From contig CAIRGO010000232.1 in NCBI GenBank assembly GCA_903878115.1, positions 1 through 36,442 of the forward strand: 36,442 nucleotides of DNA. Reading direction: 5' to 3'. This DNA is from Akkermansiaceae bacterium. GTDB lineage: Bacteria > Verrucomicrobiota > Verrucomicrobiia > Verrucomicrobiales > Akkermansiaceae. The notes beneath the pieces were generated by a model. The model did no database searches. It was not told where the DNA came from and worked only from the letters and a program-made list of their open reading frames with translations. Positions 7,178 to 16,888 of this stretch are shown in pieces. Numbering within the stretch: position 1 is the stretch's first letter; every line of letters starts with the position of its first letter. A program made the position numbers and the translations under genes.

Positions 7178-7503
7178 CCAACGCACTATTCTCCATCATC
7201 GCACAAGCAACGCCGCCCGCAGCTCCAGGTCCTTCTGGTCTTCTGGGCAATCCTATTGTCATGGTCCTTGCGATGATCGTGATGTTTTATTTCCTGCTCA
7301 TCCGCCCACAACAAGTGCAACGCAAGCAACTGCAACAACGCATGGATTCACTGCAAGCAGGTGACCGCGTCGTGACTTCCGCCGGCATTCACGGATTGGT
7401 GCACAACATCAAAGACAAAACCGTCATTCTTAAAATCGCCGATAACACCATGGTGGAATTTGATAAATCCGCTGTTGCTATTGTCCTGAAAAAAGAAGCA
7501 TAA
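7174..7503 (+). CDS. yajC: Preprotein translocase accessory subunit YajC
   Basis: 109 residues. One transmembrane helix (about 28-46, PIVMVLAMIVMFYFLLIRPQ) is followed by the YajC signature RPQQ..RKQLQQRMDSLQAGDRVVTSAGIHGLV and a small beta domain. YajC binds SecDF and YidC at the inner membrane and aids, without being essential for, protein export. It starts inside the last codons of tgt (four-base overlap) and ends 34 bases before secDF, so the three form one operon. Confidence 0.93.
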   Translation: MTNALFSIIAQATPPAAPGPSGLLGNPIVMVLAMIVMFYFLLIRPQQVQRKQLQQRMDSLQAGDRVVTSAGIHGLVHNIKDKTVILKIADNTMVEFDKSAVAIVLKKEA

Positions 7504-7537
7504 TTTTCCCCCACACGCATCAACCATCATCGCACAC

Positions 7538-9961
7538 ATGAATTCATTGCTACAAATTACCCCTCCTGAACCCGCATGGTGGGAAAATCTCCTCGCCAAT
7601 CCGCTCACGCTGTTTTGTTACGGGCTCGTTTTGCTCGTCCTCTTCGGCTGGTATTTTGCCACCGAGCATGAGAATCGCAAACGCAACGTCGGCACCTTGT
7701 TGCTATTTTTGGTCGTTGTGCTCTGCACCTACGCGATCATACCACCGTCGCAAAAGCTCAAAGCAGCGATCGACATCCAAGGTGGATCTTCCTTCACAAT
7801 GCAGGTGCAACCACGCGAAGATGAGGACGGCAAAATGGTCCCCGTTACCGAGCTGGACACAGAAAACGCCATCACCATCATCGAAACACGACTCAGCCAA
7901 GGTGGCATCGCCGAGCCAGTGGTATTCCGCCAAGGCGTGAGCCGCTTCGTGGTGCAGATGCCTGGTATCAAACCAGAAGAAGCGCAACGAATTCGCAAAT
8001 TGTTAGAGACCGCCGCGAAGTTAGAGCTCCGCCAGGTGCATCCGAATTCTGATTCCTTGGTGTCAGACATTGAAAGCGGTAATCACATTGAACCGGGTTA
8101 CAGACTCTTCGATTACAAATACAAAATCAACGAAGGTGAAGCCGACGAGCAAGAACTGACGCGTAAAATCCTACTCAACCGCCGGCCGGCAGTAGAAGGC
8201 AGAGACATTCTCAGTGCCTATCCAGATGCCACGGGTGGCGGACGGGTTGACATCACACTCGATGGAAAAGGCGAAGATAAAATGATCGCGCTGACCGGTC
8301 CGATGACCGCAGGACGTGATCGCATCGCGATCGTGCTGGATGGTCAGTGCATTAGCGCACCTACAGTGCAATCAGTGCCACTCGGCAAGCAATTTCAGAT
8401 TACTGGACTCAATGCGAAAAACGAAGCTTCAGAACTTGCGAAAAACTTGATGAACCCCATCAATAACCCGCTGAAAGTCGACAACGAACAAACCGTTTCC
8501 CCTACTTATGGAAAAACTGTGGTCAAACAAGGACTGCTCTCTGGCATCGTCGGCTTGCTCGCTACCTTCGTATTTATTCTGCTCTACTACCGTCTTGCAG
8601 GTTTCATTGCACTAGTCGGACTGATCGTAAACACCTTGATGTTATTCGGTATCATGGCGATGTTTGGCATGGCCTTCTCACTTCCCGGCATCGCGGGTAT
8701 GGTGCTCACCATTGGTATGGCGGTGGATGCGAACGTGCTGATTTATGAACGTTTGCGTGAAGAAATCGAAGCGGGCAAATCAATCAAAAACGCCATCGCT
8801 GTCGCATATGAAAAAGCCTTTACTGCTATTTTCGATTCGAACTTCACATCATTGATCACCGCATTGATTTTATTCTGGCGCGCTAGCGGCACCGTAAAAG
8901 GATTCGCCGTAACGCTGACAATTGGTCTCGTATCTTCCCTCTTCGCATCGATCCTCGTGACCCGCGTATTGTTCCGTTGGGGTGTAGATTTGAATATGAT
9001 CAAACGCTTCAAATTCCTCAACCTGATCAAAGGTGCCAACTTTGACTTCCTCGGCAAACGCAAACTTGCGGCACTGCTCTCATTGGCAATGGTGGTCGTT
9101 TCGATTGCCATCGTAGCGATCAAAAAAGAGAAATCGTTAGGCATTGACTTCACTGGCGGCACACTAATTACCTACGTTGTTGGTAACAATGACGTGCTGC
9201 ATCAAGTAGAAGTGGAAACGGCACTAAAAGGCATGACGTTGAAAAAAGATGCTTTCGTGCAGGAGCAAACACAGCCAGTCACTGGACGTTTGCTAACCGT
9301 GCGCTGCGACAATGATGACGCTACAGCGATATTGGAGAAAATAGAGGCTACTTTCCCCGAGATTACTAAGCTAGAAAAACCAAGCCGCGAGGAAGTCTCC
9401 GCATTGCTTGGTAAAGAATCACTGCGTGACTCCTGCTATGCGTTGATAGCTGGTATGGCATTGATTTTCCTCTATGTTGCCTTCCGCTACCGTCTCTCAT
9501 TCGCCGTGGGTGCCTTGATCGCGCTATTCCATGACGTTATTATCAGTGCTGGTTTCGTGGTGCTTTTTGGCAATCAACTTTCGCTGATTCACATCGGTGC
9601 GATTTTGACCATTGCTGGATACTCGATCAACGACACCGTGATTATTTTTGACCGGATTCGTGAGTCACTGCGTTACAGCACAGGCTCACTAAAAGACATC
9701 ATGAACGAGGCCATTAATGCTACACTTTCACGGACGATCCTCACCTCCGGTGCGACCCTGTTCTCGGTGATGGCGCTGTATTTCTTCGGTGGCCCGTCGA
9801 TGCGTGATTTCTCACTGATGATTCTGATCGGGATCGTGGTAGGAACTTACTCATCGATCTTCGTGGCCTCTGCCCTTGTTCTGTGGTGGTCGAAAGTAAC
9901 GAATGCCGACTACAGCGAAGTGGAAGCAACGGAGACGACTGCGGTAGAAGTGGTCGGATAA
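7538..9961 (+). CDS. secDF: Fused SecD-SecF protein-export membrane protein
   Basis: 807 residues, SecD and SecF in one chain. SecD half: first membrane helix near 25-50, a large periplasmic P1 domain (about 60-320), then five helices with the motif GMVLTIGMAVDANVLIYERLREE near 387-409. SecF half: a helix after KRKLAALLSLAM (about 508), a short periplasmic domain with SLGIDFTGGTLI, then helices with GAILTIAGYSINDTVIIFDRIRE near 687-709. Both halves keep the acidic membrane residues tied to proton flow. SecDF pulls substrates out of SecYEG on the periplasmic side using the proton gradient. Fusions occur in several phyla and fit Verrucomicrobiota. Last gene of the tgt operon, followed by a terminator. 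Confidence 0.95.
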   Translation: MNSLLQITPPEPAWWENLLANPLTLFCYGLVLLVLFGWYFATEHENRKRNVGTLLLFLVVVLCTYAIIPPSQKLKAAIDIQGGSSFTMQVQPREDEDGKMVPVTELDTENAITIIETRLSQGGIAEPVVFRQGVSRFVVQMPGIKPEEAQRIRKLLETAAKLELRQVHPNSDSLVSDIESGNHIEPGYRLFDYKYKINEGEADEQELTRKILLNRRPAVEGRDILSAYPDATGGGRVDITLDGKGEDKMIALTGPMTAGRDRIAIVLDGQCISAPTVQSVPLGKQFQITGLNAKNEASELAKNLMNPINNPLKVDNEQTVSPTYGKTVVKQGLLSGIVGLLATFVFILLYYRLAGFIALVGLIVNTLMLFGIMAMFGMAFSLPGIAGMVLTIGMAVDANVLIYERLREEIEAGKSIKNAIAVAYEKAFTAIFDSNFTSLITALILFWRASGTVKGFAVTLTIGLVSSLFASILVTRVLFRWGVDLNMIKRFKFLNLIKGANFDFLGKRKLAALLSLAMVVVSIAIVAIKKEKSLGIDFTGGTLITYVVGNNDVLHQVEVETALKGMTLKKDAFVQEQTQPVTGRLLTVRCDNDDATAILEKIEATFPEITKLEKPSREEVSALLGKESLRDSCYALIAGMALIFLYVAFRYRLSFAVGALIALFHDVIISAGFVVLFGNQLSLIHIGAILTIAGYSINDTVIIFDRIRESLRYSTGSLKDIMNEAINATLSRTILTSGATLFSVMALYFFGGPSMRDFSLMILIGIVVGTYSSIFVASALVLWWSKVTNADYSEVEATETTAVEVVG

Positions 9962-9988
9962 GAATTCTCCGCTTTAGGCTTTTTTATA

Positions 9989-10018
9989 AGGACGGCACTC
10001 CGGTGCCGTCCTTTTTTT
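9989..10018 (+). terminator. Rho-independent terminator after secDF
   Basis: A perfect ten-base stem AGGACGGCAC / GTGCCGTCCT (9989-9998 with 10003-10012) around a TCCG loop, followed by seven T. It starts 27 bases after the secDF stop. On the minus strand the stem has no comparable T-run, so it mainly serves the plus-strand operon. Confidence 0.92.
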
Positions 10019-10045
10019 ATGTGTGGGGGGATGCTTGATTTTTGA

Positions 10046-10112
10046 TTCGACTAAAGTCGAAACTACTTTGCTTAGGCTTTGAATAAAGTCCGCGCTCCTA
10101 AAAATCCTGCCT
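10046..10112. repeat. Compound intergenic repeat between secDF and dnaB
   Basis: Three separate families joined: TTCGACT-AA-AGTCGAA plus ACTACTTTGC (as at 5341), then GGCTTTGAATAAAGTCCGCGCTCC (a degenerate copy of the 5517/5910 repeat), then AAAAATCCTGCCTT (as at window base 1). It shows directly that these modules combine end to end. Confidence 0.7.
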
Positions 10113-10120
10113 TTAAGCAA

Positions 10121-11554
10121 CTAACCAGCCTGCTCAGGCGCTGGAGCACCAGTCTCAAATCTCATCAAGGGAGCAATGAATGTCAGCGGTATCGGACCAG
10201 TTTCACCGTTACGATTTTTTGCCAGCAACAACTCGGCTTTGCCTTCTTCTTCTTTGCGCTCTTCTTCGTTTTCGGCGTAGTAGGCACTTCGATAAAGCAA
10301 CCCAATCAAGTCGGCATCTTGCTCGATGGAACCAGACTCCCGCAAGTCCGACATCCGCGGCGTGCCGCCTGAACGCCCCTCGGGACCACGGTTCAACTGC
10401 GCCAAAACAATAATCGGAATGCCTAACTCTTTTGCCAATCCTTTCAAACCAGCCGAAATCTCCGCAATCTCCCGCTCACGCGAGTTCGATGCCTGTTTGC
10501 TAAGCGATCTCATCAACTGAAGATAGTCAATCGCAATCAACTGAATGTCTTCATCACGCTTTTTCCGACGCGCTTTGGCACGCAAATCATTGATTGTGAT
10601 GCCTGGAGTATCATCGATGAATAATTTTGACGCGGCGATCGCCTCGGACGCGCGCTTTATATCTAACAGATCTTTTTTCTGAGGTTTGTAGCCCTTGTGC
10701 ATGTCTGAAATCTTGAAACGTGCGCGAGAGAATACCAGACGTTGCACCAATTGGAACGATGTCATCTCGCAAGAAAATACCATCGAAGGTTTTTGCAGAT
10801 CGACGCAGATATGTTCTACGATATTCATCATGAACGATGTTTTACCCATCGAAGGACGTGCTGCGATAATGAACATTTCTCCCGACTTCAATCCATTCGA
10901 CATACGGTCCAGCACTTCATACCCAGTGGAAAAACCTTGCGCGGCTTTTTCACCCGCACACAATGCGGCAAAGTATTCCATTACTTCTTGCACCGCTGAT
11001 TTGATCGTCACGGCACGTGTCACCTCGGCGCTTTCACGAATGGCTAGCACATTCGTCTCCACGCTATCCAACAATCCAGGTACATTTTCTGGATTGTCAT
11101 ACGCCTGCGCGATGGCTTCATTGCAGGAATTGATGATCGAGCGCAGGGTGTATTTGTCCTTCACAAAGCTCAAATGCGCTAGAAAATGTCCCGCATTAGG
11201 AGCGTATGAATAGAGCTCGGTGAGAGCTGCTGGGCCACCGACACTCTCTAACAATGATTTGTCAATCAACTTCTGAACTAACGAAACCAATTCGATTTCC
11301 ACACCTTTTTCGAAGCACTCTAACAAAACATCAAAAAGCATCCCATGTGCAGGCAAATAAAAATGCTCTTTCGTTAGTTTCTCCTCGACGGCAGTGCCAA
11401 TGTATTCGTGCGGATTCTGCAGCATCGAACTCAAAATCGATTTCTCAGGCCCCAAGGCATGAGGCATGGCACGCATCACATCGTCCACTCGTTCCACCCC
11501 GCCTTGCTGTAAGTTCGGCGCTTGATTTCCTGTTTCTTTTGCGTTGTCAGCCAT
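10121..11554 (-). CDS. dnaB: Replicative DNA helicase DnaB
   Basis: 477 residues, the usual length. The N-terminal domain (about 25-130) begins HALGPEKSILSSMLQNPHEY, the DnaB N-terminal helical fold that binds primase. The C-terminal RecA-like motor has Walker A ARPSMGKTSF, Walker B IQLIAIDYLQLM, the LAQLNRGPEGR motif and the SDLRESGSIEQDADLI motif with its arginine finger region. It unwinds DNA at the replication fork as a hexamer. It stands alone on the minus strand, convergent with the tgt operon and divergent from the 11732 gene. The last residues are a short proline- and alanine-rich tail. Confidence 0.95.
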   Translation of the reverse strand: MADNAKETGNQAPNLQQGGVERVDDVMRAMPHALGPEKSILSSMLQNPHEYIGTAVEEKLTKEHFYLPAHGMLFDVLLECFEKGVEIELVSLVQKLIDKSLLESVGGPAALTELYSYAPNAGHFLAHLSFVKDKYTLRSIINSCNEAIAQAYDNPENVPGLLDSVETNVLAIRESAEVTRAVTIKSAVQEVMEYFAALCAGEKAAQGFSTGYEVLDRMSNGLKSGEMFIIAARPSMGKTSFMMNIVEHICVDLQKPSMVFSCEMTSFQLVQRLVFSRARFKISDMHKGYKPQKKDLLDIKRASEAIAASKLFIDDTPGITINDLRAKARRKKRDEDIQLIAIDYLQLMRSLSKQASNSREREIAEISAGLKGLAKELGIPIIVLAQLNRGPEGRSGGTPRMSDLRESGSIEQDADLIGLLYRSAYYAENEEERKEEEGKAELLLAKNRNGETGPIPLTFIAPLMRFETGAPAPEQAG

Positions 11555-11731
11555 AATGTTGTGAGATAGAAGATTGCCTCATTCGCCTGCCATTCGTCAA
11601 TCTTGGTAACATGTGAATAACTTTTCCGTCGGTATAACACTGATAAATCCAACAAAATTTGCCCAAAATTTTTTTCTCGAAAATTGCGCGCTACAATTTA
11701 GTCTTCGCAAGCAACCACGAATCTTTCTTAC

Positions 11732-12424
11732 ATGACTCCACTGATTTTCTCATGCGAACACGCCACATGCACTGTGCCCGAGGCCTACAAAGAAGCACTT
11801 CGCAATGACGGAGATCTTGTGACTTCTGCGCAAGGATGGGATATCGGCTCACTCAATCTGGCGCAAGGAATGTCGATGAAGTTTCGCACTCCTTTGGTGC
11901 ATTCTGAAATGACTCGTTTGCTGATCGATTGCTACTTGCAAGAAAACAATCCGGATCGCTGGAGCCATCTAGCGATGAAGTTAAACGAGACGCAGCGTGA
12001 AAAGCTGCACGAGCGGCAATTGTTGCCTTATTTGCAAATACTGCGTCAACGCATCACTACGGAACTAGAGAGGAATGCATCGGTCATTCACATTTCCGTT
12101 CATACTTTTGATCCACAGACCAAACCAGATTTGCATCTAAGCCTCATCTTCGGTGAGGGTAAAGTGTTTGAATCCACCATAGGTATCAATTGGCTCAATC
12201 AGATCAAAGCAGCAGCGCCAGAGCTTACTTGCAGAGCAAATGTAATGTTTTATCCGGAGCATACCAAAACTCTGCTGGATACTTTACGAAGCGAGTGGCC
12301 ATCAGATCAATACATCGCGATAGAACTTCAAGTGAGTAATCAGATCTTTCTCGAAGGTAATCCGATGCGATGGGATAAATTAAAAGCCATGTTACAAAGC
12401 ACGCTGATTGCGGTGATTCATTGA
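11732..12424 (+). CDS. N-formylglutamate amidohydrolase-family protein
   Basis: 230 residues matching the N-formylglutamate amidohydrolase fold: LIFSCEHATCTVPEAY at the start, GWDIGSLNLAQGM, then TPLVHSEMTRLLIDCYLQ and a histidine in VIHISVHTFDP. In histidine degradation such enzymes release glutamate and formate, but no hut genes are near, and many homologues hydrolyse other N-acyl compounds. No signal peptide, so cytosolic. It is a single gene between divergent dnaB and a convergent operon. The AT-rich 177-base gap before it presumably holds its promoter; no clear -35/-10 pair was found there. Confidence 0.75.
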   Translation: MTPLIFSCEHATCTVPEAYKEALRNDGDLVTSAQGWDIGSLNLAQGMSMKFRTPLVHSEMTRLLIDCYLQENNPDRWSHLAMKLNETQREKLHERQLLPYLQILRQRITTELERNASVIHISVHTFDPQTKPDLHLSLIFGEGKVFESTIGINWLNQIKAAAPELTCRANVMFYPEHTKTLLDTLRSEWPSDQYIAIELQVSNQIFLEGNPMRWDKLKAMLQSTLIAVIH

Positions 12425-12462
12425 TGAGTTGATGTCGACTCATCTCAGCGCACGATAGAAAA

Positions 12463-12651
12463 TCACGACAGCAGCTCATCGCGAAAATCTTTGTGCAGAT
12501 CTGCTGAGGGCTGCTTAATTTTCCTAGAGATCATGCGCCGATCTACAGGTTTGACACCGAAAATCCACAAATGAAATGGGATGCCTGTTTTGCGAGAATG
12601 ATCATTGATCTGTTGCTGCAAAGCACTTTCCTTGCTTGTTTTTTTGCTCAT
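12463..12651 (-). CDS. Small protein at the end of the exosortase operon
   Basis: 62 residues, basic and soluble: MSKKTSKESALQQQINDHSR, then KTGIPFHLWIFGVKPVDRR and a polar tail. It begins two bases after the stop of the membrane protein gene before it, so it is almost surely co-transcribed. No family was recognised. It is convergent with the 11732 gene, 38 bases apart. Operon position and sensible composition favour a real gene. Confidence 0.5.
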   Translation of the reverse strand: MSKKTSKESALQQQINDHSRKTGIPFHLWIFGVKPVDRRMISRKIKQPSADLHKDFRDELLS

Positions 12652-12653
12652 AA

Positions 12654-13463
12654 TTATTTTTCGCTATATGGGTTAACAGATGAGTTGGTAGCATCAACAT
12701 TAGCACCGCGAATTGCTGGTGTACCCTCAGGTTTATTTGTGTTAGACAAAGAAGCATCTGCGGAATCATACCAATGCTGGAGAAAAAACTTTTTCTCATC
12801 AAGGGTAAGGAATTTATCGGAACGACCTAAAATAGGACGCAGCGATGTGCTGAGCTGTAAAGTAACCAAAATAAAGACCATCGCCCACAACGTAAGGGGA
12901 CCAGACTGAGTGGATCCTTGTTGGCGAGCGCAATTGATCAAAAAACGTATGCCAAAAAATATCGATATCACCCACACAGCGAGGGTGAGAAATCCGATGA
13001 AGCCGAATGAAGACGATGATTCCACGAAAATCCATACGGCGGGAGCGAAACCTAACAAAAGTGAGCCCATCAGAGCCATCGCTCCTGTGAGACAAACCGC
13101 AAGTAAGCGTGGTGAGAAGCGTGAACCTGCAAGGGTGGAAAAGATATACAAACTCGGATAACAAATCAGCGAAGCAAAAATCATACCCATGATGATTTTT
13201 ACGGGTGCGGCCCAGAGTTGCTCGTGCCTGGCAAAACAGCCTAATACAAAGCCAAATGCCGACAATGAAATCAGCGCGATCCCTGCAAGACGCAGGGCTA
13301 CTTGACCGCCACAGCGTTCTAACACTGGCACGAGTTCTTTTGGTCGGCGCAATAGCCCCTCAAATATTTCCCGTAAACTAGGATTGTCAGAAAAAGGCAA
13401 ATCCACATTCGTAGATTGCATGACTGGTGGTAACGTTGGTATCAATGGTGTTTGCTCGTTCAT
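12654..13463 (-). CDS. Integral membrane protein, exosortase operon (paralogue of its neighbour)
   Basis: 269 residues. A cytosolic N-terminus with MNEQTPLIPTLPPV and a helix SLREIFEGLLRRPKELVPVL is followed by about five or six membrane helices (near 57-78, 87-110, 120-147, 153-172 and 188-206), then a hydrophilic tail that includes LRPILGR (208-214). The same LRP-x-x-G motif and the same FGF..G...R start of the first helix pair occur in the gene before it, so the two look like diverged tandem copies. The start codon overlaps the previous stop by four bases (ATGA). Function unknown; the fold resembles Yip1-like membrane proteins in layout only. Confidence 0.7.
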   Translation of the reverse strand: MNEQTPLIPTLPPVMQSTNVDLPFSDNPSLREIFEGLLRRPKELVPVLERCGGQVALRLAGIALISLSAFGFVLGCFARHEQLWAAPVKIIMGMIFASLICYPSLYIFSTLAGSRFSPRLLAVCLTGAMALMGSLLLGFAPAVWIFVESSSSFGFIGFLTLAVWVISIFFGIRFLINCARQQGSTQSGPLTLWAMVFILVTLQLSTSLRPILGRSDKFLTLDEKKFFLQHWYDSADASLSNTNKPEGTPAIRGANVDATNSSVNPYSEK

Positions 13464-14254
13464 ATACTTTTTGTTGTTAATATTTTCTTATGTTTCGAAT
13501 CGACGAAAATTTTGGCCCCGATGATGATGGCAAGGGCTGCGATCAATGCGCCCCATTCAAATCCATGACCACCGGTGATGGATTGCACCGAACGCCAGAC
13601 GGATTCATAGAATGTCCCTTCAAATGGATGATCGCGCAGAAAGGCAACATCCAAGTTAGGCGAACCAAAAAAGGGGCGAAGAATCCAGGAAAATTGAGCG
13701 CCTAACAGTCCATTCCCAGCAAGCCACGAGAATAACGTTAGTGTGGCCGCAGAGCGGTTTGTTGCTTTGCTCGCCAGCAAGCGATGCAAGTGAATGTTAG
13801 AGAAAACCCCCGCGCAGGCGATCAGTAATGTGTGAGCCAGCATATATGCGGCATGAGCCATGCCCGCATTTTCTGCCTGAGGTGAAGGTGCATTCAATGC
13901 GAGAAAAAAAGTGATCGGAGCAAGACTTCCTAACAAAATTGCTGCTACGGCAAAGGCCCATAACAATGCCATCAATGATTGCCGAAACCCTAGGCCAGTG
14001 TTGCACAAAACCCCTAACAGTCCATTCAACAATGCATTACAACCAAGCGTGCAGACAATCAATGCGGGCATTTTTACCGCCACATAAAGCCCCATCACCG
14101 GCGAGCGCCAATAGCCAACAGTAAAACCATAGAGCGCTAATCCCAAAAAGGAAAGCACACATAGCACCACCGTACGACGCCAATGCAATTCTTCTACCCA
14201 GGCAAGATTGGGCTGCAAGGTCTGTGTGATGATAGTTGCCAGCTTTTGATTCAT
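13460..14254 (-). CDS. Integral membrane protein, exosortase operon
   Basis: 264 residues from the ATG at 14254, which has a textbook GGAGG six bases upstream and overlaps the exosortase stop as ATGA; a longer open frame from 14353 lacks this. About six membrane helices lie between residues 28 and 190. They are followed by FSWILRPFFGSP (188-199), an FLRDHPFEGTFYESVW segment and a last helix near the C-terminus. The LRP motif and helix pattern match the downstream gene. Neither protein is recognised as a transporter or enzyme. Strict coupling to the exosortase suggests a role in the same surface-sorting or envelope process. Confidence 0.72.
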   Translation of the reverse strand: MNQKLATIITQTLQPNLAWVEELHWRRTVVLCVLSFLGLALYGFTVGYWRSPVMGLYVAVKMPALIVCTLGCNALLNGLLGVLCNTGLGFRQSLMALLWAFAVAAILLGSLAPITFFLALNAPSPQAENAGMAHAAYMLAHTLLIACAGVFSNIHLHRLLASKATNRSAATLTLFSWLAGNGLLGAQFSWILRPFFGSPNLDVAFLRDHPFEGTFYESVWRSVQSITGGHGFEWGALIAALAIIIGAKIFVDSKHKKILTTKSI

Positions 14255-15681
14255 AACAATCCTCCATTCACTGTGATCACCGTTTCCGCGCGCCATGGGC
14301 CATTCAGTGGATGACGTAACGCGGACCAATACCACGCCGAAACATCTGTCCAACTACTCTGGTCGAGGCTACTGACAATACGCTCATGAACATCAAAGCG
14401 ATGGCCTTCTTTCTGAATGCGATAGTGCCACCAGTGGCCGCCTTTTCGATCAACAAAAACTTTAGCAGCGCCAATCGAATATCCCGCGGCGCGCAAGCAG
14501 TCCGACGAGGGATGAAGTTGCCGTGTGGCATATGCCACATCACGCACAATCAAATGTAGTCCAGCAGATTGATAGACGCCGATCGAACCAGGAAAATGCT
14601 GTGAGAAATTCATTTCCTGAGCCGTTGGGTCGATTTTTGTTAGATCATAATCAACATCCATAAATTCATACGTGGTCAGAACTTCACTGGTGATCATGGA
14701 AGAAGAAGCTTGCCACGACTTCGTCGCTGCCAGTGCAGGCGAAATGATGGCCGCTGCAGCAAGCAACATCATTCGGGCTGGCCGCAACCAAACATGGCGC
14801 GGAGGCGTAACCACGGATCGACACTCACGAATCGGCAACCGTAGAATCAACAGTGCACTCAGCAAAAAGAAAATCAACCCAACCACCTCGTGCACAGCAT
14901 CGCCCTTTAACAAATGACCAGTTTCCTGAAAAGTCAGCACGCAGGCTCTGATGATGTTCGCGACCATTACCATCGGTATTGCTATGACAAATACCAAGAA
15001 GGTAGAAGCCGAAGACGACCTACGCCACGCAGCGAAAGTCGCAGCAAAAAAACAACCATGCCACAGAAATCGAATCCCAGAACAGGCTGGATCAACCGCC
15101 ACATGCTGCCCATTTACTACAATGGTAGTAGCATCGGCATGCGCTGAAAACCCCATCAAATTGAGCAAAATTACGGAGCATTCTGTCACTACCACTCGCA
15201 ATGGCCAACCGAGATAAAATTGAAGCGACGAGATGACAGGAAGACTTAGCAACAACAATAAGCACACTGCTGAGTTGCGTTGCGGCCCTATGAGCAACAC
15301 CATACCAATCAATGAAAATGCCGCACGCATCAGTGGCGGCAGATGCCATGTGCCAAGAGCAACGAGAAAAATCAATGCTGCTCCGGCCAATCGCAACTTA
15401 CTATCAGTGACAAATTTTTCTCGTTCGTGATTTTTACATAAAAACCAGCATGCTACCAACAGCGGAAGAATGCCCCATGGTTCATCACCGCCATCCTGCA
15501 ACCGCATAGCATACCATCGCAATACTGGCCAACTAGCTACAGCGACTAGTAACAGACTGATCCATGTCTCCTTGGAAAAATAACTGCAATGATCCGCAGA
15601 TTTCTTGCGAATATACAGCGAACCGAAACGTGGAAAAATGATGGTGTGATTCATGGCAAAACGTTCTGTGAACGACGCCAT
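14251..15681 (-). CDS. Exosortase/archaeosortase-family transpeptidase fused to an EpsI-like domain
   Basis: About 476 residues. Residues 40-285 hold about eight membrane helices with the exosortase catalytic triad: C200 in VDPACSGIRF, R245 in ANIIRACVL and H264 in GDAVHEVVGL. After a last helix (about 303-320) the rest is extracytoplasmic and contains RQLHPSSDCLRAAGYSI (388-403), the HPxxxC motif of EpsI/DUF3485 domains. Exosortases cut C-terminal sorting signals such as PEP-CTERM and pass the protein to the envelope, usually with exopolysaccharide export. No PEP-CTERM-like protein is in this window, so the substrate lies elsewhere. First gene of a four-gene operon. Starts: GTG 15684 or ATG 15681, with AGG just before. 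Confidence 0.82.
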   Translation of the reverse strand: MASFTERFAMNHTIIFPRFGSLYIRKKSADHCSYFSKETWISLLLVAVASWPVLRWYAMRLQDGGDEPWGILPLLVACWFLCKNHEREKFVTDSKLRLAGAALIFLVALGTWHLPPLMRAAFSLIGMVLLIGPQRNSAVCLLLLLSLPVISSLQFYLGWPLRVVVTECSVILLNLMGFSAHADATTIVVNGQHVAVDPACSGIRFLWHGCFFAATFAAWRRSSSASTFLVFVIAIPMVMVANIIRACVLTFQETGHLLKGDAVHEVVGLIFFLLSALLILRLPIRECRSVVTPPRHVWLRPARMMLLAAAAIISPALAATKSWQASSSMITSEVLTTYEFMDVDYDLTKIDPTAQEMNFSQHFPGSIGVYQSAGLHLIVRDVAYATRQLHPSSDCLRAAGYSIGAAKVFVDRKGGHWWHYRIQKEGHRFDVHERIVSSLDQSSWTDVSAWYWSALRHPLNGPWRAETVITVNGGLL

Positions 15682-15742
15682 CACACCTGATCAATGTGAA
15701 TCCTATATGAAGATACTATGAATTTTCACCGTAATCGCATTT

Positions 15743-16888
15743 TTATTTTTCTAGCAAAAAATCTATCATCGCGATGCTTTTGCCATTCGCCTTGATTTCT
15801 AACACATGCTTACCCGCATGGAAAACGCGAGTGGTGATGAAACGAAACGATTGTCTTCGCTCGGTCTGATGCAAGCTCATAGCGGGCAGAGTAATTTCTT
15901 TCCAGAGATACGTTTTCGGCGACAACGAACCATTTGCTTTTTGATAATGAATGACGATATCCAAGCGGATTTTTTGATCCTTTCTGCTCACTGATTTCAC
16001 GCTGAGAGAAAATTGCACATCGCCATGCATCGGCACTTTCGGCGTATGCAGATCGAGGATCACGTCCGCGAGCTTCGGTGATTTCATCTCATAGATTTCT
16101 AGGGCAGAACTGTGCCCTTGTTTTAATAAATTTCGGAGCGCATGACGCAGCATTTTTTTTCGTGGTATGGGCGCTTGGTGATGCCATTTTTGGGCGATAT
16201 CCAATACCAATTCAGGATGATCTTTCGCCACATCGTTGAGGTGATTCGCCACTGACTTTCTCACATATTCAGAGGGATCATCGCGTAAGGTCTGCAACAA
16301 CGGCAATGTGAGTTGTGGATTAGCAATCATCGCGGGCAATTGCATCGCCCATGGCAAACGTGGACGAGAACCTTCCGACACCAGACGACGCACATGATGG
16401 TTTTCGTCTTCTGTCCAGCGTGTAAGATGAGCAAGAGCACGTGGCACGTCGGCAAGAATCGCATGGCGGATGCCAAACTCTGCCGTGAAACGCATAGTGA
16501 GTTGGCGCAGCAGTTCCATCGAAAGAGAGAAATCGCGCACAGCATTTTTCCCAGCTATTTCTGCTAACGGCATAATTAGCCATCCTTGAATGCCTTCTGC
16601 AGTCGTTCCTTCCTTGCCAGAATTCGCATCACAATCGGGGTGCAAGGAACTCATGATCAAGTCAGCAGACTGCTCCCACGAACTGGGCAAAACAGCAACT
16701 AATGCTTGCTCAATCTGAAAAGATCGCTGCTTTAGCTCTAAAGAATCTAGCTCGCGCGTGGCGAGTGAGATGAATTTTTTCCGCGGAAAAGTAGGTGAAT
16801 GATTTGCGAAAACATCTGCCATTTGGCATATGGCGAGATTATTAAAGACGTTTTTGAATGGTTCCACGCGGAGCCATTCAAAAAACAT
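15743..16888 (-). CDS. alkC: AlkC-type DNA alkylation-repair glycosylase
   Basis: 381 residues. AlkC removes 3-methyladenine and related alkylated bases without flipping them out. The N-terminus VEPFKNVFNNLAICQMADVF matches the family opening, which supports the start at 16888 over the inner ATG at 16822. Residues about 40-265 form HEAT-like repeats with LVSEGSRPRLPWAMQL, YVRKSVANHLNDVAKDHP and LRHALRNLLKQGHS. The last 100 residues (PMHGDVQFSLSVKSV to the end) are an immunoglobulin-like beta domain, as in AlkC but not AlkD. It lies between the exosortase operon and lpxR; its start is 70 bases from the lpxR ATG, so the two divergent genes share a control region. Confidence 0.82.
   Translation of the reverse strand: MFFEWLRVEPFKNVFNNLAICQMADVFANHSPTFPRKKFISLATRELDSLELKQRSFQIEQALVAVLPSSWEQSADLIMSSLHPDCDANSGKEGTTAEGIQGWLIMPLAEIAGKNAVRDFSLSMELLRQLTMRFTAEFGIRHAILADVPRALAHLTRWTEDENHHVRRLVSEGSRPRLPWAMQLPAMIANPQLTLPLLQTLRDDPSEYVRKSVANHLNDVAKDHPELVLDIAQKWHHQAPIPRKKMLRHALRNLLKQGHSSALEIYEMKSPKLADVILDLHTPKVPMHGDVQFSLSVKSVSRKDQKIRLDIVIHYQKANGSLSPKTYLWKEITLPAMSLHQTERRQSFRFITTRVFHAGKHVLEIKANGKSIAMIDFLLEK

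Follow-up and report, generated by a model that had tools for sequence, protein, structure and literature searches.

The analysed stretch, hereafter the window, comprises 36,442 nucleotides of contig CAIRGO010000232.1 from an Akkermansiaceae bacterium (assembly GCA_903878115.1) and carries an exosortase operon, which is considered here as part of a predicted CreB regulon. Four genes lie on the minus strand: an exosortase open reading frame (ORF; 14251-15684, 477 amino acids (aa)), two genes for polytopic membrane proteins, M1 (13460-14254, 264 aa) and M2 (12654-13463, 269 aa), and a gene for a small basic protein, S62 (12463-12651, 62 aa). One ATGA overlap joins the exosortase gene to M1 and another joins M1 to M2; two bases separate the M2 stop from the S62 start. 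The initial annotation, made from the sequence alone, had described a four-gene coupled operon, and its coordinates, overlaps and gap were confirmed. The order exosortase-M1-M2-S62 was found again in two genomes of the same genus, G006 and G002, where identity to the window proteins was 42% for the exosortase, 60-61% for M1, 55-57% for M2 and 38-40% for S62. The operon goes beyond a chance arrangement, because all four genes keep their order in both genomes. Between G002 and G006, S62 showed 8, 7 and 16 substitutions at the first, second and third codon positions, respectively.

The exosortase identity was borne out by the PF09721 profile, with 100.5 bits against a gathering cut-off of 25.7. 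The closest NCBIfam model was exosortase Q (NF012182), with 152 bits falling below the curated cut-off of 270, and on this similarity the protein is classed only as XrtQ-like. Cys201 (codon 15082-15084), Arg246 (14947-14949) and His265 (14890-14892), the catalytic residues, all on the minus strand, were invariant in 12 of 12 aligned proteins, namely 11 orthologues including the own copy and the second exosortase of the genome. This second exosortase (C238:408-1367, L068) was nearest to XrtA and the general EpsH models. A strong orthologue of the window exosortase was present in 13 of the 57 genomes searched, the own genome included, with a clear gap down to weaker matches. Three starts are candidates, GTG 15684, ATG 15681 (used in the initial annotation) and ATG 15654; the last is probably the true one, because the promoter array described below then stands at -69, comparable to -71 and -72 in the two sister genomes. 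The C-terminal domain, with an HPSSDC motif at 14514-14497 (minus strand), had been labelled EpsI-like. It is indeed fused to the exosortase, but in the five proteins scanned it matched none of the Pfam or NCBIfam models named EpsI; its one resemblance was to the C-terminus of XrtT (E 0.014 in the window protein and 1e-3 to 7e-10 in four relatives). The HPxxDC domain was separate from the exosortase frame in G019, G020, G031, G032 and G042.

Exosortase loci were inspected in the own genome, in 12 others of the 57-genome set and in 8 of 9 further genomes (G261 was left out). Directly upstream of the exosortase, 17 of these 21 loci carried a gene for a VIT-VWA protein homologous to a copy in the own genome, and the tails that were read ended in the PEP-CTERM type. 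In an 18th locus, that of G245, the upstream gene encoded a divergent VIT protein of 870 aa with a PEP-type tail. The three loci without an adjacent VIT protein were those of the window genus (own, G002 and G006). A target adjoining the window operon was ruled out; the sole homologue found in the own genome, a protein of 680 aa, is encoded on contig C303 and scored 114 bits for VIT and 60 bits for VWA. At residues 658-680 of 680 it matched the PEP-CTERM model TIGR02595 with 16.7 bits (cut-off 16), or 21.7 bits in the genome scan, and it reached 396.9 bits with the marine sortase target model TIGR03788, below the cut-off of 551.65. The absence of a sorting-signal protein nearby, as initially annotated, held for the flanks inspected; elsewhere in the genome, 19 PEP-CTERM matches exceeded the cut-off, with the likely target among them. 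The C303 tail reads SVPEPG. From the 22 scan matches 16 other tails were recovered, with PEPS in 15 cases and PEPT in one; four matches yielded no tail, and another string proved not to be one. This difference is only a hint, because the targets of relatives have both PEPG and PEPS. From the upstream position of its homologues, the VIT-VWA PEP-CTERM protein is likely to be the dedicated target of the exosortase. In 6 of the 21 loci (L057, L066, L067, L125, L126 and L127), creC was also found within the exosortase locus. In L127 of G245 (7276-12444), creD, the VIT protein gene, the exosortase gene, an EpsI-type segment, creB and creC stand in a row behind one triple cre tag. Parts that are scattered in the own genome stand together there, and creD occupies the spot where M1-M2 might stand.

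In PMC4689548, CreB is reported to bind TTCACN6TTCAC, the cre tag, upstream of creD, and a tag with one mismatch is accepted for Stenotrophomonas creD. A predicted CreB array, TTCAT-N6-TTCAT-N6-TTCAC, was located at 15722-15696 on the minus strand of the window. It has an 11-bp period, ends 42 bases before ATG 15654, and its best pair is one mismatch from the published consensus. No other exact TTCAY triple occurs in the window, where one further match, two mismatches away, was at chance level. The position of the array is kept in the two sister genomes, though the bases between the repeats differ.

Three exact TTCAY-triple sites were identified in the own genome of 4.41 Mb, one at the window operon (C232) and two before small proteins (C301 and C329). 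The site on C301 (G000:C301:11610-11636, L149) lies about 33 bases before the gene of a lipoprotein-looking protein of 134 aa. On C329 (G000:C329:16255-16292, L150), tandem TTCAY repeats precede the gene of a hydrophobic protein of 95 aa, which itself follows a glucosyltransferase-type gene that we take to be opgH-like. Of five more sites, each a single mismatch away, one is the promoter of the C303 target, and the remaining four are taken for chance. A reversed-pattern control gave no exact sites and two with one mismatch.

For 132 gene hits from 53 loci, positions -400 to +60 were scanned with spacers of 2-11, tandem repeats being counted apart. At spacer 6, TTCACN6TTCAC occurred 13 times without a mismatch and always on the gene strand, compared with 0-3 times at each of the nine other spacers (2-5 and 7-11). 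Copies with one mismatch numbered 65 at spacer 6 (62 on the gene strand) and 3-12 at the others. Tags were found upstream of most targets, of most M1-M2 pairs and of creB, with exact copies before creB in L057, L107, L132 and L134, and in the window genus they were found upstream of the exosortase. At least 30 tag loci were returned, 8 of them from CreC-positive genomes. In four of these eight (G141, G105, G261 and G245) the triple tag stood before creD (416-436 bits), which served as a positive control; in the other four the tag preceded an MSEP-CTERM gene (G216), genes for two proteins without a Pfam match, and one for an oxidoreductase-like protein.

Among 288 genomes of the phylum, with thresholds of E ≤ 1e-12 for the exosortase and E ≤ 1e-80 for CreC, the exosortase was found in 15, CreC in 48, M1 in 28 and MSEP-CTERM in 23. 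CreC was present in all 15 exosortase genomes, where 2.5 were expected. The CreC of the own genome scored 505.9 bits on C196, and a CreB-like gene adjoins it. The exact triple tag occurred in 33 of the 48 CreC genomes and in 34 of the 240 others. With overlaps counted apart, CreC-positive genomes gave 92 exact triple matches against 3 in the control, and CreC-negative genomes 46 against 15. A near-identical TTCAY triple was common to eight genomes of one genus (G076, G082, G085, G088, G118, G165, G268 and G292), all outside the CreC matches, and is possibly another kind of site.

M2 adjoined M1 in all M1 loci fetched from 20 of the 28 M1 genomes. Two short M1 peptide patterns, which reach near relatives only, were run against 84,980 species and returned 42 loci, all from Verrucomicrobiota and mostly from Akkermansiaceae and Verrucomicrobiaceae. 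M2 stood beside M1 in 37 of these; of the other five, L193, L219 and L227 reach the contig end, and L225 and L226 hold a partial M1. CreBC was a frequent neighbour, 13 of the 42 loci having creB and creC upstream in the same orientation, 10 of them within 1 kb (a script count of 14 included one weak downstream match, L197). Upstream of M1, an exact tag was found in 19 loci, against 0-2 with other spacers, and a tag within one mismatch in 40. An XrtQ-like exosortase stood beside M1 in 5 of the 42 loci, and just 5 of the 28 M1 genomes had one at all. By these counts, M1-M2 follows CreB more than the exosortase.

The initial annotation had pointed to a shared FGF/YGF pattern and an LRP-x-x-G motif in the two membrane proteins; M1 indeed carries YGF and LRPFFG, and M2 carries FGF and LRPILG. 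A tandem duplication had been proposed as well. Distant homology is probable, as the next matches of the M2 profile after true M2 were M1 ORFs and hhalign of M1 against M2 gave E 1.4e-5; paralogy is unproven, deeper profiles giving 0.0017 at a probability of 16%. Searched with M2, the own genome yielded no further copy. AlphaFold models (mean confidence, pLDDT, 85.7 for M1 and 82.7 for M2) have five long helices in common, with one extra at the C-terminus of M1. Known folds were tried and rejected, Foldseek against PDB giving nothing at E ≤ 0.001 (best 0.80 for M1 and 0.32 for M2). Nor was a credible relative found in Pfam, NCBIfam or PDB, sequence searches of PDB included, which agrees with the earlier view that these membrane partners are undescribed. 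Pfam searches with 40 M1 and 37 M2 members gave isolated weak matches, the best being E 0.0021 for one M2 member with DUF5836, and none of these members matched the CreD profile (PF06123). Five distant M1-M2 pairs (L111, L113, L116, L119 and L120) are accompanied by a gene whose product, a membrane protein of 200 aa, matched nothing in Pfam, and four of them also by a radical-SAM-type gene (scanned in L113 only, B12-binding/radical-SAM). In L111 (6946-8982), a single ORF combines an M1-like membrane region with a stretch that resembles the radical-SAM-type genes found elsewhere in this group. A HEAT-repeat gene upstream of the window operon (15743-16888) had no homologue in the sister loci and was left out.

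We propose, with a probability of about 0.7, that the operon is one unit of a CreB regulon comprising the exosortase, the VIT-VWA target and a CreD-like M1-M2 pair. Envelope stress or another signal of CreC would lead phosphorylated CreB to bind the TTCAY array and to raise the XrtQ-like exosortase together with its one dedicated VIT-VWA substrate. The substrate would be exported by Sec, and the exosortase would cut its PEP-CTERM tail and pass the protein to a surface anchor. As a further part of this regulon, M1-M2 would act in the inner membrane in the manner of CreD and may protect or organise the envelope; in a few lineages it adjoins the exosortase. In Stenotrophomonas, loss of CreD is reported to harm envelope integrity (PMC4689548). 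A bolder version, in which CreBC of Verrucomicrobiota induces, under stress, a private exosortase with a single VIT-VWA substrate and M1-M2 replaces CreD and physically aids display, in convergence with the proteobacterial dedicated sortase system but using an exosortase where that system has a sortase, is put forward only tentatively.

Several observations weigh against the proposed regulon. The window promoter lacks the exact consensus TTCACN6TTCAC, and neither the 400 bp next to the own creB nor the surroundings of the weak creD-like gene of the genome yielded a tag. Within the window genus, the target search covered the own genome. Fisher p-values for the co-occurrences ignore shared ancestry, and their input counts were transcribed manually. 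At a tolerance of one mismatch, tags with other spacers occur in 1-21 of the 42 M1 loci, 2 of the 40 M1 tags (L186 and L191) lie inside an exosortase gene, and no M1 tag was found in L202 and L223. CreB is not the sole context of M1-M2, because CreC is missing in 17 of the 28 M1 genomes, and the five distant M1-M2 pairs are located near an HTH_34/ArsR-type winged-helix regulator (scanned in L111 only, HTH_34). The proposed regulon assigns no role to S62.

Much of the initial annotation is kept by another reading, in which the exosortase has M1, M2 and S62 as dedicated subunits or as partners on the anchor side, the association with CreBC being fortuitous. It draws on the ATGA coupling, the order kept in three genomes, and the recurrence of exosortase-M1-M2 in L188-L190; target, exosortase, M1 and M2 stand together in L189 and L190, and L188 begins inside the exosortase. 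M2 alone follows the exosortase in G017 and G029, and M1 and the exosortase share five genomes against 1.5 expected, a figure uncorrected for relatedness. A small protein with an [FW]RxELL tail was encoded 3' of M2 in the 6 distinct exosortase-M1-M2 loci against 2 of the 54 other M2 rows, a pattern that was picked after S62 had been seen and is absent in L058, L059 and L065; in L188-L190, the proteins concerned are short ORFs with an S62-like tail. Opposed to this, 37 of the 42 M1 loci have no adjoining XrtQ-like exosortase, 23 of the 28 M1 genomes have no exosortase match, and 15 of the 21 exosortase loci lack both membrane genes beside the enzyme. An exosortase-only role of M1-M2 was rejected, as the pair is mostly found away from XrtQ-like exosortases, and we consider the partner reading rather unlikely. 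The dedicated sorting machine first suggested survives in the tight operon and a probably dedicated exosortase; for the membrane pair, the unrelated contexts named beforehand as evidence against it were largely what we found, although the full set exosortase-M1-M2 occurs both in the window genus and in L188-L190. The CreB boxes and the target on another contig had escaped the initial annotation.

The exosortase might instead serve the general PEP-CTERM proteins of the genome, a view that fits the 19 PEP-CTERM matches and the lack of a target beside the window operon. It is improbable in view of the second, XrtA/EpsH-like exosortase on C238, the adjacent target in 17 of the 21 loci, and the promoter signal predicted to be shared, with one mismatch, by the own target. 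About equally improbable is that the TTCAY arrays bind a different regulator and that the co-occurrence with CreC reflects ancestry. The excess of matches over the control in CreC-negative genomes and the untagged own creB would suit such a regulator; the tags before creD, the classic CreB target (cre tag as in PMC4689548), in four genomes and the exact tags before creB in four loci argue for CreB itself.

If the proposed regulon is correct, the predicted CreB box would name both a regulator and a substrate for a dedicated exosortase, and the CreB regulon, which has been studied in few Proteobacteria, would extend to protein sorting in another phylum. It would also give a context for M1 and M2, two membrane families undescribed in the libraries searched. 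To our knowledge, the signals that dedicated exosortases respond to are largely unknown. No literature joining an exosortase with a VIT domain or with CreC was found, most subscription papers lying outside the search, and the matches for CreBC with Verrucomicrobi concerned stream ecology and an algal virus.

The window system shares the enzyme family, catalytic residues and a PEP-CTERM target with known exosortase systems (EpsH family, XrtQ, XrtN and XrtT), and NCBIfam holds an "XrtN system VIT domain-containing protein" that parallels its VIT target. It differs from them in that its exosortase falls below every reported XrtX cut-off, in its predicted CreB control and in the adjoining M1-M2. 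With the MSEP-CTERM/XrtK system, of which XrtK is the partner enzyme, it shares a neighbourhood, an MSEP-CTERM protein being found near M1-M2 in G213, G216 and G231, with a cre tag before the G216 copy. The MSEP-CTERM target is larger (950-1046 aa), and its co-occurrence with M1, in 4 of the 28 M1 genomes, was not significant genome-wide. A CreB box and creBC upstream of inner-membrane proteins are in common with the CreBC-CreD regulon of E. coli, Pseudomonas and Stenotrophomonas, whereas M1-M2 is not CreD and the predicted regulon adds an exosortase and its target. The logic of a two-component system, one VIT-VWA target and one sorting enzyme is shared with the proteobacterial dedicated sortase system (by its model names marine_srt_targ, marine_sort_HK and marine_sort_RR), where the enzyme is a cysteine sortase. 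The window system differs in having an exosortase, a target below the TIGR03788 cut-off and CreBC proper, three CreC proteins tested scoring 521-561 bits as CreC and 91-114 bits as marine_sort_HK.

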